Shown piece after piece: positions 25,218-29,868 of a stretch of DNA of 49,028 bases; position 1 is the stretch's first letter, and every line of letters begins with the position of its first letter. Source of the stretch: Dehalococcoidales bacterium (lineage in GTDB: Bacteria > Chloroflexota > Dehalococcoidia > Dehalococcoidales > BS750m-G39); contig JALHSZ010000016.1 of the NCBI GenBank assembly GCA_022865485.1, positions 1-49,028 of the forward strand, read 5' to 3'. The position numbers were made by a program, and so were the translations under genes. Below the pieces are notes generated by a model. That model had not been told where the DNA came from. It saw nothing but the letters and a program-made list of their open reading frames with translations, and made no database searches.

Positions 25218-26393
25218 ATGGAATGGTGGCAACAGTTTCTGGCTATTGTTACAGGTGCATTAGTCAGTGGAATAATAGGTGTGTTTATAGTTCTCCTGAC
25301 GGGTAGGATTCGGAATAGGGAGTGGGTGCGGGAAAACGTCATCAGACCGCTGTACAACGAATTGGATTGGATACGAGTTTCTCGGACATCCCAGATAGCC
25401 CCTGGGTTCAAAAGCTTTTGGAGCCAGCTTGATTCCTACTCCAAGCTGAAGCTGGGTGAGAATTTGAGGAATAGCCTAGCTAACTACATAAATGTACTTG
25501 CTCGCGTTCAGAGCGCTTTCCAGCACTACGACAAATTGAGATGGGAAAGAAACTATGAGGACTGTCTTAAACGAGCCATGACAAACTACCTGACCGACGA
25601 TGGCAACAGTATATTGCTAGAAAAACACGCACTCGGAGAGAAAGGGTACCACGCTTTATCCATACCTATTAAGGATTTCTTAAACAAGTATCTTCCAGTC
25701 CTTACCCAACTTAGAGACGCGGATAGTCTTGCCCAAACCTTAATCGCAGAATCGGAGAGACATAACTGGGAACATGAAAAATACTTCCGTGCCTGGCAGG
25801 CGCAACGCCCAACCGTGTTTGCAGAACTAGCTCGTGAGTTTCGCAATATCAAAATGCCTCAGGATTACGTGGATGCAGAGGAAGAGTTACAAAGGGTGAG
25901 ACAGGAATTAGTCTCGACTGCTAACTCGCTGGCTAATCAGCTGTTTGAGCAAAAAGACGAGAGAAAGCAATATAAAAACTCAACCGTTGAAGCTTTTGGC
26001 AGTTTATCTTTGGGTTTGTGGACAGTCGCACTAGTTGGGTATTTAACTTCAGGCATTTCTTGGGAAACTTACATTCTGATTGCACTTGGAGGATTGTCTG
26101 CACTATTCAGTATCTATCTTGTACTGCCTTGGGATTGTGTATATAGGAAGCAAAAGACAGTCCTAAAATACTTGGAAACAAAGCAAATCATAAAATTTGC
26201 CAAGTCTTTGGGGTGGTTAATAGTGCTTGCGGTATTTGGAGTAAGGCTAATACAAACAAAAGTCGATTGGTTAATAATTGCAGGACTAATATTCGCAATA
26301 TTTGCTTACGTAGTTTTTTATGTCAGTCTCTGGAAAAGGAAAAAAGACAACGGGAAAGGAAAAAGCTTAAAGGAGGAAAATCATGGGAAGTAA
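25218..26393 (+). CDS. Orphan membrane protein with helical cytoplasmic domain
   Basis: A 391-residue protein of unknown function. One membrane segment lies at the N-terminus (about residues 8-28), followed by a long, largely helical soluble region with a coiled-coil-like stretch near DAEEELQRVRQELVSTANSLANQL (read in parts). Two to four C-terminal membrane segments (about residues 270-310 and 335-375) end in a strongly basic tail. GGGAGGT precedes the ATG. Base composition is clearly more AT-rich than the flanking genes, suggesting acquisition. The next small gene begins inside its last codons. Confidence 0.75.
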   Translation: MEWWQQFLAIVTGALVSGIIGVFIVLLTGRIRNREWVRENVIRPLYNELDWIRVSRTSQIAPGFKSFWSQLDSYSKLKLGENLRNSLANYINVLARVQSAFQHYDKLRWERNYEDCLKRAMTNYLTDDGNSILLEKHALGEKGYHALSIPIKDFLNKYLPVLTQLRDADSLAQTLIAESERHNWEHEKYFRAWQAQRPTVFAELAREFRNIKMPQDYVDAEEELQRVRQELVSTANSLANQLFEQKDERKQYKNSTVEAFGSLSLGLWTVALVGYLTSGISWETYILIALGGLSALFSIYLVLPWDCVYRKQKTVLKYLETKQIIKFAKSLGWLIVLAVFGVRLIQTKVDWLIIAGLIFAIFAYVVFYVSLWKRKKDNGKGKSLKEENHGK

Positions 26394-26469
26394 AGGCAGA
26401 AAGAACGTAAAGAAAACCAAGAAGGCGAAGGAGCCAAAAGGGACACAACAGGCCGCCACGAAGAAATAA
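26383..26469 (+). CDS. 28-residue lysine-rich peptide
   Basis: A tiny ORF missing from the track: ATG at 26383, TAA ending at 26469, sequence starting MGSKGRKNVKKTKKAK. Nearly half the residues are Lys or Arg and there is no hydrophobic segment. It overlaps the end of the membrane protein gene by 11 bases in another frame. A near-perfect Shine-Dalgarno (AAAGGAGG) lies six bases before the ATG, much stronger than is needed by chance. Function unknown; a nucleic-acid-binding or membrane-tail-binding peptide is conceivable. Confidence 0.6.
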   Translation: MGSKGRKNVKKTKKAKEPKGTQQAATKK

Positions 26470-26475
26470 ATGGGT

Positions 26476-26507
26476 AAATTCTAAATTCTAATATCTAAAT
26501 CCTAAAC
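26476..26507. repeat. AT-rich repeat, left flank of the four-helix-bundle gene
   Basis: The tract is built from iterations of AAATTCTAAA and ATCTAAATCCTAAA. CTAATATCTAAATCCTAAAC (26488-26507) is the reverse complement of the right-hand repeat except for a seven-base insertion there. Confidence 0.75.
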
Positions 26508-26515
26508 GGGTTGAA

Positions 26516-26890
26516 ATGGCCAAAGTTAGCAGCGCAAAACATTATGATTTGGAAGAGCGAACTCTCAGCTTTGCCAAAGAGGTAATAGCATTTGTAAATA
26601 TTCTCCCGAAAACCATGGCAAACCTAGAGATAAGCAAGCAGGTTATAAGGTCTTCTGGTTCAGTGGGAGCTAATTATATTGAAGCCAATGAAGCCTTGGG
26701 CAAAAAGGATTTTGCCATGAGAATCAAGATTTGTCGCAAGGAAGCCAAAGAGAGTATATATTGGCTAAGGCTTATCGAGGCAAGAGGGGAAGAGGCGGAA
26801 AAGAGAAAGCAATCGTTGATTAGTGAAGCTACAGAGCTTATGAAGATATTTGGCGCTATCTTAGGTAAAACTCTAAATCCGAAATCCTAA
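26516..26890 (+). CDS. Four-helix-bundle protein, S23 / 23S rRNA intervening-sequence family
   Basis: A 124-residue member of the four-helix-bundle (S23/IVP) family. EERTLSFAKEVIAFVN, LEISKQVIRSSGSVGANYIEANEALGKKDF (in parts), KICRKEAKESIYWLRLIEA and a final long helix match the family, including the well-conserved SVGANYIEA segment. Some homologues sit in 23S rRNA intervening sequences and related Avd proteins serve diversity-generating retroelements; most are free-standing and uncharacterised, as here. It has little Shine-Dalgarno, low GC and flanking inverted repeats, and its last codons (TLNPKS) lie within the right-hand repeat, as in a mobile cassette. Confidence 0.88.
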   Translation: MAKVSSAKHYDLEERTLSFAKEVIAFVNILPKTMANLEISKQVIRSSGSVGANYIEANEALGKKDFAMRIKICRKEAKESIYWLRLIEARGEEAEKRKQSLISEATELMKIFGAILGKTLNPKS

Positions 26891-26935
26891 ATTCTAAATA
26901 TGTTTAGGATTTAGTGCTTAGATATTAGGATTTCA
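26871..26935. repeat. AT-rich repeat, right flank of the four-helix-bundle gene
   Basis: CTCTAAATCCGAAATCCTAAATTCT continues the same iterated motif (quoted in part by family) and is followed by GTTTAGGATTTAG (26902-26914), seven extra bases and ATATTAG (26922-26928). Together these are the inverse of the left flank. The repeat covers the end of the coding sequence. Confidence 0.75.
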
Positions 26936-26978: not shown

Positions 26979-27662
26979 ATGCCGAACGAATATGAAATCA
27001 ACGAGCTAGCCAAGGAAGAATCCTGGCGGATGTTCCGCATCATCGGGGAGCTGGTGGAGGGCTTCGACACCCTCACCGGCATCGAGCCCGCGGTAACCAT
27101 CTACGGCTCGTCCCGCCTCAAAGCCGACGACAAGCTCTACGCCCAGACCGAGGAAATCGCCTACCAGCTGGGGCAGCTGGGCTTTTCCATCGTAACGGGC
27201 GGGGGGCCGGGAGCGATGGAAGCGGCCAACAAGGGCGCGAAAAGGGCCGGGGTGGAATCGGTGGGGCTGAATATCGAACTGCCCCAGGAGCAGGCCGTCA
27301 ACGCCTACACTACCAAGTCCATAATCTTCCACCACTTCTTCGCCCGCAAGGTGATGCTGGTAAAGTACGCCACCGCCTTCGTCATCATCCCCGGGGGCTT
27401 AGGCACGCTCGACGAGCTGACCGAGGTGCTGACCATGATGCAGACCCATAAGATAAAGCCCTTCCCGGTGATACTATTCAACAGCCGCTACTGGAAGGGC
27501 TTCCTCGACTGGCTGAAAAGCTCGGTGCTGAATAAGGGCTGCGTCTCCGAAGAAGACCTCGACCTGCTAATAGTCTGCGACCGACCCGAAGAGGTGGTCG
27601 AAGCTGTCCAGGGCTGGTACACCACGCACAAGCTGGTGGGCAGGAAGGCACTGCCCAAGTAA
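26979..27662 (+). CDS. LOG family protein (Rossmann fold, TIGR00730 type)
   Basis: A 227-residue lysine-decarboxylase-like/LOG family protein. Members hydrolyse nucleoside 5'-monophosphates such as cytokinin ribotides to free bases. ITIYGSSR-type strand (VTIYGSSRLKADD), VTGGGPGAMEAANKGAKRAG and the signature PGGLGTLDELTEVL are complete. The ATG at 26979 with GCAGGAGGA is preferred over the TTG at 26964. GC content is host-like again. It lies 17 bases before the HAS-barrel-like gene and probably shares its transcript with herA, though a functional link is unknown. Confidence 0.92.
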   Translation: MPNEYEINELAKEESWRMFRIIGELVEGFDTLTGIEPAVTIYGSSRLKADDKLYAQTEEIAYQLGQLGFSIVTGGGPGAMEAANKGAKRAGVESVGLNIELPQEQAVNAYTTKSIIFHHFFARKVMLVKYATAFVIIPGGLGTLDELTEVLTMMQTHKIKPFPVILFNSRYWKGFLDWLKSSVLNKGCVSEEDLDLLIVCDRPEEVVEAVQGWYTTHKLVGRKALPK

Positions 27663-27679: not shown

Positions 27680-28273
27680 ATGGCTGAAAAAGAAAGGGTC
27701 GGCGAGGTAATCGAAGCCAGCACCACCACTCTTACCGCCCAGTGCTACGAGCTGTACGAAATACCGCCGCTGGGCAGCCTGGTCAAGACCGGGGATTCGT
27801 CCGCCGAGCTCTACGCCATCGTCTATAACGCCGCCACCACCAGCCTGGAGCCGGGGCGCCGCCCTATTGCCCGCGGCAAGGACGAGACCAGCGAGGAGGC
27901 AATCTACCGCTCGTCTCCGCAGCTGGCCAAGCTTTTGCGGAGCGAATTCGGGGCGGTGGTGGTGGGGCATAAAGAGGGCGACAGGCTCTATCATCATTTG
28001 CCACCCCAACCCGCCCGCATCCACAGCTTCGTCTATCAGTGCCCCCCCGCCGAGGTCAGGGAGTTCGGGCAGTCCTTCGACTTCCTCAACATATTGCTCA
28101 ACGCCGGCCTGCCCGTTCCCGCCGAGGAGCTGGTCAGCGCCGCGCTGCGCCAGATGAGCCGGGCGCATAAAGACCCCCGCGCCTTTCTGGTGGCGGCGGG
28201 CAAGGAATTAGCCATATTGCTCAGCGGCAACCTCAACCAGCTTAAAGCCATCCTGGGGAGGATTAAACAATGA
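27680..28273 (+). CDS. HAS-barrel-like adaptor protein upstream of HerA
   Basis: A 197-residue protein with no database-level name I recognise. The N-terminal 60 residues (VGEVIEASTTTLTAQCYELYEIPPLGSLV, in parts) read as a small beta-barrel of the kind found at the N-terminus of HerA-type ATPases (HAS barrel). The C-terminal half (FGQSFDFLNILLNAG and the ELVSAALRQMSRAHKDPRAF segment) is helical. It overlaps herA by four bases (ATGA), so the two are made together, and the product is likely to bind HerA or NurA. The overlap and shared barrel are seen; the interaction is inference. Confidence 0.7.
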   Translation: MAEKERVGEVIEASTTTLTAQCYELYEIPPLGSLVKTGDSSAELYAIVYNAATTSLEPGRRPIARGKDETSEEAIYRSSPQLAKLLRSEFGAVVVGHKEGDRLYHHLPPQPARIHSFVYQCPPAEVREFGQSFDFLNILLNAGLPVPAEELVSAALRQMSRAHKDPRAFLVAAGKELAILLSGNLNQLKAILGRIKQ

Positions 28274-29868
28274 GCGAACGTCTGGGCATTGTCGTCTCCG
28301 GCTCGTTGACTAAAGGGATGGAGGTCAAGCTGGACAGCTCGGCATCTATCGAGGATATGGCGGTGGGGCGCTTCGTCACCATCGAGGGGGCAAAGCGGCG
28401 CTTCTTCGGCATGATAAGCGAGGTCAGCCTGGGAATGACCGACCAGAGGCTTGCCCTCACCCCACCCGACGTCGCCGACCCCTTTATCGCCGAGGTACTG
28501 GCCGGCACCAGCACCTTCGGCACTTTGCACGTTAGCCCCACCCTGGTCATCGGCGGCGACGCCGCCAGCCTGCTCGAAGGCCCCCAGCCCGTCAAGACCG
28601 TGCCCAGCCACTTCTCCGTGGTCAACCTGGCTTCGGAGCGGGACGTGGAGCTGGTCTTCGGCAGCGAGGACGCCAAGAGATTTTTCATCGGCAACCCGCT
28701 GGATATGGAAACCAAGCTCTGCCTCGACCTGGAGGAGTTCGTCAAGCGCTCCAACGGCATCTTCGGCAAGAGCGGCACGGGCAAGACCTTCCTCACCCGC
28801 ATCCTGCTCATCGGCATGCTGCAAAAGAGCCAGGCGGTCAACCTGGTCTTCGATATGCACAACGAATACGGCTGGGAAGGCAGCAGCGAAAAGGGCACCA
28901 AGGTCAAGGGACTGAAACAGCTTTTCCCCTCCAGAGTGGCCGTATTCACGCTTGATGAGGAAAATTCCCGTCACCGCCAGGTAATCACCGATTTCGCGGT
29001 TAAGATCGGCTACGACGAGATTGAGCCCGCGGACATATCCCTGCTGCGCCAGACGCTGAACCTCACCGAGCAGGCCACGGAGGCAGTCTACCGCCTGCGG
29101 CAGCGCTTCGGCAAGGACTGGCTGAGCCAGACCCTGGAGACGAGGGAACCCGAGGAAACCAGAACCCTGCTCGACGAGCTCGATATCCACGAGAGCACCT
29201 TCCAGAACCTGCGGCGGGGGCTGGCGACCATCCAGCGCCTGCCCTTTATCGAGCCCAAGCCCCCCACCAACGCCGTGAAAGCCATCCTGGAACACCTCGA
29301 CCGCGGCACCAACGTGGTGCTGGAGTTCGGCCGCTACCGCGATATCACGGCTTATATCCTGGTAGCTAACATGCTCAGCCGGCGCATCTACGCCCAGTAC
29401 CAGGAGCGGATGGAAAAAGCCATGGCCGAGGATACCACCCGACCCACACCGCTGGTTATAACCATCGAAGAAGCCCACAAGTTCCTCAACCCCGAGGTCG
29501 CCAGCCAGACCATCTTCAGCACCATCGCCCGCGAGATGAGAAAGTATAACGTCACCCTGCTGGTCATCGACCAGAGGCCCAGCGGCATCGACAGCGAGGT
29601 TATGTCGCAGATGGGCACCAAGATAACCTGCCTGCTGGATAACGAGCGCGATATCGACAGCGTGCTCGCCGGCGTATCGGGGAGAAACGAGCTTAAATCG
29701 GTCCTGTCCAAGCTCGCCGCCAAACGGCAGGCGCTCGTCTTCGGGCACGCCGTGCCCATGCCGGTAGCTTTCCAGCCCCGCGAATACGGCTCGGCGGAAT
29801 CTTACCGCGGGTTTACCGCCAGCGGCAAAACGGGGACGAAAGAAGACATCGAGAAGCTGTGGGAATAA
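28270..29868 (+). CDS. herA: HerA-type hexameric DNA-translocase ATPase
   Basis: A 532-residue FtsK/HerA superfamily ATPase that pumps DNA to the NurA nuclease. It has an N-terminal HAS barrel (GIVVSGSLTKGMEVKL to about residue 80), Walker A GKSGTGKTF near residue 170, Walker B ITIEEAHKFLNPE near residue 400, a sensor segment LLVIDQRPSGID and a distal TCLLDNERDIDSVLAGVSG. It is a full-length HerA. It overlaps the adaptor gene and is convergent with the HAD phosphatase. The long minus-strand ORF 28036-29748 in the track is its antisense shadow. Confidence 0.92.
   Translation: MSERLGIVVSGSLTKGMEVKLDSSASIEDMAVGRFVTIEGAKRRFFGMISEVSLGMTDQRLALTPPDVADPFIAEVLAGTSTFGTLHVSPTLVIGGDAASLLEGPQPVKTVPSHFSVVNLASERDVELVFGSEDAKRFFIGNPLDMETKLCLDLEEFVKRSNGIFGKSGTGKTFLTRILLIGMLQKSQAVNLVFDMHNEYGWEGSSEKGTKVKGLKQLFPSRVAVFTLDEENSRHRQVITDFAVKIGYDEIEPADISLLRQTLNLTEQATEAVYRLRQRFGKDWLSQTLETREPEETRTLLDELDIHESTFQNLRRGLATIQRLPFIEPKPPTNAVKAILEHLDRGTNVVLEFGRYRDITAYILVANMLSRRIYAQYQERMEKAMAEDTTRPTPLVITIEEAHKFLNPEVASQTIFSTIAREMRKYNVTLLVIDQRPSGIDSEVMSQMGTKITCLLDNERDIDSVLAGVSGRNELKSVLSKLAAKRQALVFGHAVPMPVAFQPREYGSAESYRGFTASGKTGTKEDIEKLWE

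Follow-up and report, generated by a model that had tools for sequence, protein, structure and literature searches.

An S23 gene framed by inverted heptamer arrays: evidence pointing to a widespread miniature mobile element

Background

In this study, we report a 460-bp element from a Dehalococcoidales bacterium in which a single S23 gene lies between two opposed arrays of seven-base units. Comparison of genomes suggests a miniature mobile element that is widespread, occurs in many phyla and lacks a recognised transposase. It would be an intergenic equivalent of the intervening sequences (IVS) in 23S rRNA genes that code for S23. We put the probability of this explanation as a whole at about 0.62. 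The element is located in the window, the whole stretch of 49,028 nucleotides that was analysed.

Structures of S23 proteins have been solved since 2006-2007 (2gsc, 2rld), and we know of no agreed function for them. Dispersed heptamer arrays occur in several phyla and, to our knowledge, no source has been given for them. The present analysis connects these two subjects: S23 genes are framed by arrays, both ends of an element change or arise in concert, and high counts of one array type were confined to genomes with an S23 gene. The function of S23 and the origin of heptamer arrays thereby become questions that can be tested in one system.

Structure of the element

The features of the element and its flanks are as follows (coordinates are those of the window).
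26383..26469, + strand: tiny basic ORF of 28 aa in the left flank, with its stop codon 5 nt before the insertion; read from the sequence, a homologous stretch lying directly before the LOG gene in same-genus genomes G001 and G002
26475..26934, + strand: whole element, 460 bp, placed as an insertion between the tiny ORF and the LOG-family gene by the spacer length (~28 bp in G001/G002, ~495 bp here)
26475..26507, no strand: left heptamer array, which is also the left inverted arm, with TAAATTC/TAATATC/TAAATCC units; arm and lag-7 scores, homologous left arm in 60/81 window-type loci
26516..26890, + strand: S23 / 23S_rRNA_IVP four-helix-bundle gene, 124 aa; PF05635 E = 3.8e-15, AlphaFold mean pLDDT 91.9
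26868..26899, no strand: third array, in the orientation of the left array, containing the last codons and stop of the S23 gene and forming a hairpin with the right arm; arm comparison and folding
26902..26934, no strand: right heptamer array, the left array inverted plus one unit (TAAGCAC); arm and lag-7 scores, homologous right arm in 64/81 window-type loci
26979..27662, + strand: LOG / Lysine_decarbox-family gene in the right flank; PF03641 E 4.3e-36, orthologues at the empty sites 89-90% identical

The original prediction, made from the letters of the sequence, had placed repeat tracts on both sides of the S23 gene. The tracts are real and more regular than was claimed, being opposed arrays of seven-base units; their period, the locus-specific character of the units and the gene-less copies elsewhere had been overlooked. 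The left array reads TAAATTC-TAAATTC-TAATATC-TAAATCC-TAAAC, and the right array, when reverse complemented, GAAATCC-TAATATC-TAAGCAC-TAAATCC-TAAAC. The left 20 bases had been described as the inverse of the right copy apart from a seven-base insertion, and since the arrays are built of heptamers this insertion is one whole unit, TAAGCAC. Over 32 nt, the arms (26476-26507 and 26902-26933) show 81% complementarity. Their arm score of 17 was above that of every one of 2000 dinucleotide shuffles of the flanking sequence (maximum 13); the lag-7 scores were 12.5 and 13 against shuffle maxima of 9.5 and 9 (2000 dinucleotide shuffles). The arms pair in the predicted RNA fold. As RNA, the whole element was not more stable than shuffled sequence (z -1.2), and a search of Rfam returned nothing at gathering score. 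The last codons of the gene do fall inside a repeat, as had been stated: KTLNPKS* is encoded in the third, forward-oriented array (26868-26899). A near-absent Shine-Dalgarno had also been noted, and none is visible before the S23 gene (CGGGTTGAAATGG).

Assignment of the gene to the S23 family, also part of the prediction, was borne out by the profile match (56.4 bits to PF05635, for which the curated cut-off is 33.8) in agreement with the fold of the AlphaFold model. The best PDB folds for this model were 2rld (TM 0.74) and 2gsc (TM 0.74), followed by Avd, for which structures 4dwl and 8ub7 gave TM 0.65-0.74. No nuclease or polymerase domain was evident in the protein, whose conserved residues include Q42, N53, E56 and E79. 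Comparison of the window gene with three relatives gave dN/dS values of 0.08-0.17, indicating that the S23 protein has been kept functional by purifying selection. S23 is the sole ORF of at least 60 aa between the arms, and a transposase gene between the ends is absent. The element has terminal inverted repeats, a feature of insertion sequences and DNA transposons, and complementary termini that enclose an S23 ORF, as in an IVS.

Insertion site and gene-less copies

Two genomes of the same genus (G001 and G002) gave no S23 match. In both, the LOG orthologue lies directly behind the homologue of the tiny ORF. The empty site that had been proposed as a check on mobility was therefore found in both genomes, and this comparison shows the window element to be an insertion at a site that is empty in its same-genus relatives. 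No clear or consistent target-site duplication was seen by eye at the window element or at the gene-less copies looked at. The tiny basic ORF itself (MGSKGRKNVKKTKKAKEPKGTQQAATKK) has a homologous stretch twice in that region of G001 and G002, each time behind a different gene. The LOG region is bordered on one side by a NurA gene (PF09376, 23955-25160) and on the other by a probable HerA-like ATPase gene (28270-29868, judged from the P-loop sequence), and the gene content between NurA and LOG varies among the three same-genus genomes.

A search for further copies of the repeats had likewise been suggested. The arm pattern of the window type matched six times in the window's genome, twice in the element itself and four times at three other places (C8:30401, C33:66534 and C45:54912), at none of which was there an S23 match; G001 also carries a gene-less copy. 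Elsewhere in the window's genome (L221), a gene-less hairpin of 60 bp resembles the hairpin formed by the third array and the right arm. In G001:C14 (L224), a gene-less copy of 75 bp is flanked on both sides by nearly the same 16 bases (GAGGTGAAGAGGTA), possibly a target duplication or possibly a coincidence.

The pattern was far more abundant in genome G405, with 140 matches against 2 for the reversed pattern and 5 matches to the window S23 protein. Many of these arm matches form inverted pairs separated by about 100 bp, and some contain the inner repeat seen in gene-bearing copies. Arrays of another unit, TCAGCNN, reached at least 10 matches in 25/127 S23-positive genomes and in 0/266 S23-negative genomes (p = 9e-14), a test over 393 genomes that ignores relatedness and counts overlapping matches in long arrays repeatedly; the ten matches in G010, for example, are a single array.

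Patchy occupation was also seen at a locus compared in 14 genomes, where pyrG and rho were named from sequence reading. The gap between pyrG and the transaldolase gene holds an S23 gene in 3 genomes, gene-less elements or remnants in 5, and is empty in 6. The gap between transaldolase and rho in the same 14 genomes holds S23 genes of two subfamilies in 3 and a remnant in 1, the rest being empty. Different element types thus occupy the same site in related genomes, and the filled sites at this locus lie between the stop codon and the following ribosome-binding site. Stable synteny of the gene had been named as an observation that would speak against mobility, and across these other genomes the synteny of S23 is patchy. 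At pheS|pheT and upstream of transaldolase, S23 has apparently been inherited vertically over long times. Behind a transaldolase gene in G078 (L291), a truncated S23 remnant with an array suggests decay after insertion.

Between co-directional neighbours, gene-bearing copies were in the sense orientation in 78 cases (+,+) and in the opposite orientation in 7 (-,-); the figures for the window subfamily were 58 and 1. This bias fits a promoterless gene that survives only when read from a host operon, and an insertion preference would fit too.

The small mobile cassette proposed in the original prediction is thus upheld by other copies, empty sites and patchy synteny. Mobility of the element is well supported by these comparisons of genomes, from which we infer the movement itself.

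Inverted arrays around S23 genes in general

About 150 S23 (PF05635) loci from many phyla were examined, and most of them have inverted arrays, usually with a unit of 7 bases and sometimes with one of 8-10. In a class set of 32 S23 loci, comprising 31 from same-class relatives and the window locus, the mean lag-7 score around S23 genes was 17.7 upstream and 16.0 downstream compared with 3.5 in control windows, and besides lag 7 only lag 14 was raised. Units of 8, 9 and 10 bases at L125, L127, L308 and L313 indicate that the period can depart from seven; the few loci with 9- or 10-base units were recognised by eye.

S23 proteins of the window type share 55-77% amino-acid identity in at least 80 loci, with hosts among Chloroflexi, Desulfobacterota, Planctomycetes, Patescibacteria, one archaeal bin and others, and their genes are present in few copies per genome. 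A strict motif search of 81 such loci found both arms in 51, the left arm in 60 and the right arm in 64, compared with 1.0% of control windows. No relative of the window S23 was found in viral contigs. Plasmid S23 genes (Cyanobacteria, Bacteroidota, Azospirillum, Gemmatirosa, Monoglobus) are mostly arrayed in the same manner, the unit being 7 or 8 bases long. On cyanobacterial plasmids (L305, L308, L310 and L311), S23 elements lie repeatedly within CRISPR operons (cas6|cas4 twice, cas10|cmr3 and csx2|cas1).

The units vary between S23 loci, even inside one genome, and left and right agree within each locus. Similarity of the left unit to the inverted right unit was 0.70 within a locus, compared with 0.47 when different loci were paired and 0.48 when the pairing was between different copies of one genome; in the first locus set, the observed left-right similarity exceeded that in 2000/2000 permutations. 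At sites of the pheS|pheT type, where the S23 copies cluster in the tree, units differ across genomes and are still concordant between left and right. The probable cause of this concordance, in our reading, is that the two arms change in concert or are renewed jointly. Determination of the unit by the host genome was rejected, as copies in one genome were no more alike than random ones (0.476 vs 0.474), and strong co-evolution of unit and protein was not upheld, being clear only between two large subfamilies and weak inside each. In one unit of the window subfamily, ATA stands opposite TGC in a paired mismatch (16 mismatched vs 2 matched pairs, Fisher p = 0.003, for a unit chosen after seeing the data and among related copies that are not independent), which suggests an internal loop recognised in the folded strand.

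Proposed mechanism and alternative explanations

The following course of events would account for these observations. S23 would form a ring and bind to a folded single strand at its paired arms (a Xanthomonas S23 protein is reported as a pentamer in work cited in PMC4990558). It would be responsible for spreading both its own element and the gene-less copies, with host replication or repair doing the copying and neither an own transposase nor a reverse transcriptase being used. After insertion, the gene would be transcribed as part of the host operon. RNase III would then be able to excise the insert from the mRNA at the paired arms, as in the rRNA IVS, and the neighbouring genes would thereby be spared. 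The purifying selection on S23, together with array-rich genomes devoid of RVT_1 and Y1_Tnp, makes S23 itself the probable driver, and S23 with host enzymes the likeliest one. That a ring protein recognises its own heptamer hairpins while host replication or repair copies them between genes, as a distinct mode of DNA mobility, is put forward tentatively, with the odds against it in this specific form.

The original prediction had cast S23 as cargo moved in trans. Under this reading, S23 is a bystander and the arrays are moved by an insertion sequence transposase, a RAYT-type Y1 transposase or an Avd-type reverse transcriptase. The fold shared with Avd, a partner of reverse transcriptase (4dwl and 8ub7, TM 0.65-0.74), speaks for it, as do the RVT_1 domains in 18/44 and the Y1_Tnp domains in 13/30 host genomes. 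However, RVT_1 is absent from the window's genome (G000, 88% complete), from G134 and G156 (both complete and rich in arrays), from G400, and from G405 with its 140 array matches; Y1_Tnp is absent from G000, G134, G156, G400 and G410. A reverse transcriptase and a Y1/RAYT transposase were each rejected as a requirement on these grounds, and complete array-rich genomes without both domains argue against such helpers in trans, other helpers being possible. Moreover, high array counts follow the presence of S23, the one gene found recurrently within the arms, on which purifying selection acts. The passive role is therefore not sustained, and we consider it unlikely. It is less probable still that S23 is a resident, immobile host gene, the arrays serving it as signals for regulation or processing whose sequence drifts while selection maintains the pairing. 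Conserved sites like pheS|pheT, which cluster in the S23 tree and whose units drift while remaining concordant, would agree with such a gene, and so would arms that pair in predicted RNA and the cutting of the rRNA form by RNase III (PMC4990558). Against it stand the empty sites, high identity across phyla, dispersed gene-less copies and differing element types at one site.

Ordinary simple-sequence repeats grown by slippage, with S23 genes merely tolerated alongside, would explain why array length varies, and such growth has parallels in the heptamer over-representation on record in bacteria (PMC4692102, PMC4679880) and the one-heptamer difference between Coxiella strains at the IVS (PMC4990558). 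The ends, however, are inverted copies and not direct repeats, window-type arms keep the order of several units together with the ATA/TGC mismatch, and arm-pattern matches in G405 far exceed the reversed-pattern control. Slippage alone is thus a very improbable source, the least probable of the readings weighed here. A mobile S23-array element remains the preferred reading.

Comparison with known systems

The closest counterpart is the S23-coding 23S rRNA IVS. In Coxiella, this has an S23 ORF and a 28-bp terminal stem, is excised by RNase III, and carries tandem heptamers (GACAGAT) before the ORF in a number that varies between strains (PMC4990558). The window element resembles the IVS of Coxiella and Leptospira in its one S23 ORF, its stem-forming complementary ends, its size (~430-460 bp) and its poor or absent Shine-Dalgarno. 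It differs in having heptamers at both ends and dispersed gene-less copies with the same ends. It also lies between protein genes, outside any 23S rRNA gene, and is therefore classed as a variant of the 23S rRNA IVS and not as a member. If the proposed explanation is true, rRNA intervening sequences would represent a much more widespread element in the form that it takes when inserted in rRNA.

Avd of diversity-generating retroelements has the same four-helix-bundle fold but works with a reverse transcriptase, whereas the window's genome, at 88% completeness, gave no RVT_1 match. REP sequences with RAYT (Y1) transposases and MITEs are likewise short, dispersed, palindromic intergenic elements in which gene-less copies share their ends with a gene-bearing one. 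Unlike these, the S23 elements end in heptamer arrays, showed no consistent target-site duplication by eye, and are found in several array-rich genomes without a Y1 transposase.

Among heptamer arrays already described, horizontal spread was suspected for TAACTGA in Beggiatoaceae and Cyanobacteria, with no mechanism given (PMC4679880). The GGGAATC arrays of Xanthomonas are often inverted pairs, and 90% are reported to keep their position between two species (PMC4692102), so that rapid movement is less likely in that genus. Both kinds share with the S23 elements their seven-base units and mostly intergenic position; the unit sequences differ, and S23 is unmentioned in both main texts, in which we saw no gene family linked to the arrays. 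These arrays may be related to S23 elements. Within the literature covered, in which subscription journals were thinly represented and an earlier description is possible, we found heptamers at one IVS and heptamer arrays, and no general link between arrays and S23. If S23 does drive movement, many dispersed bacterial heptamer arrays may be products of S23. Several types of heptamer array were also observed side by side or nested in intergenic regions of G134, G156, G145 and G221 (L272-L288), indicating that the same gaps collect repeats from different element families.
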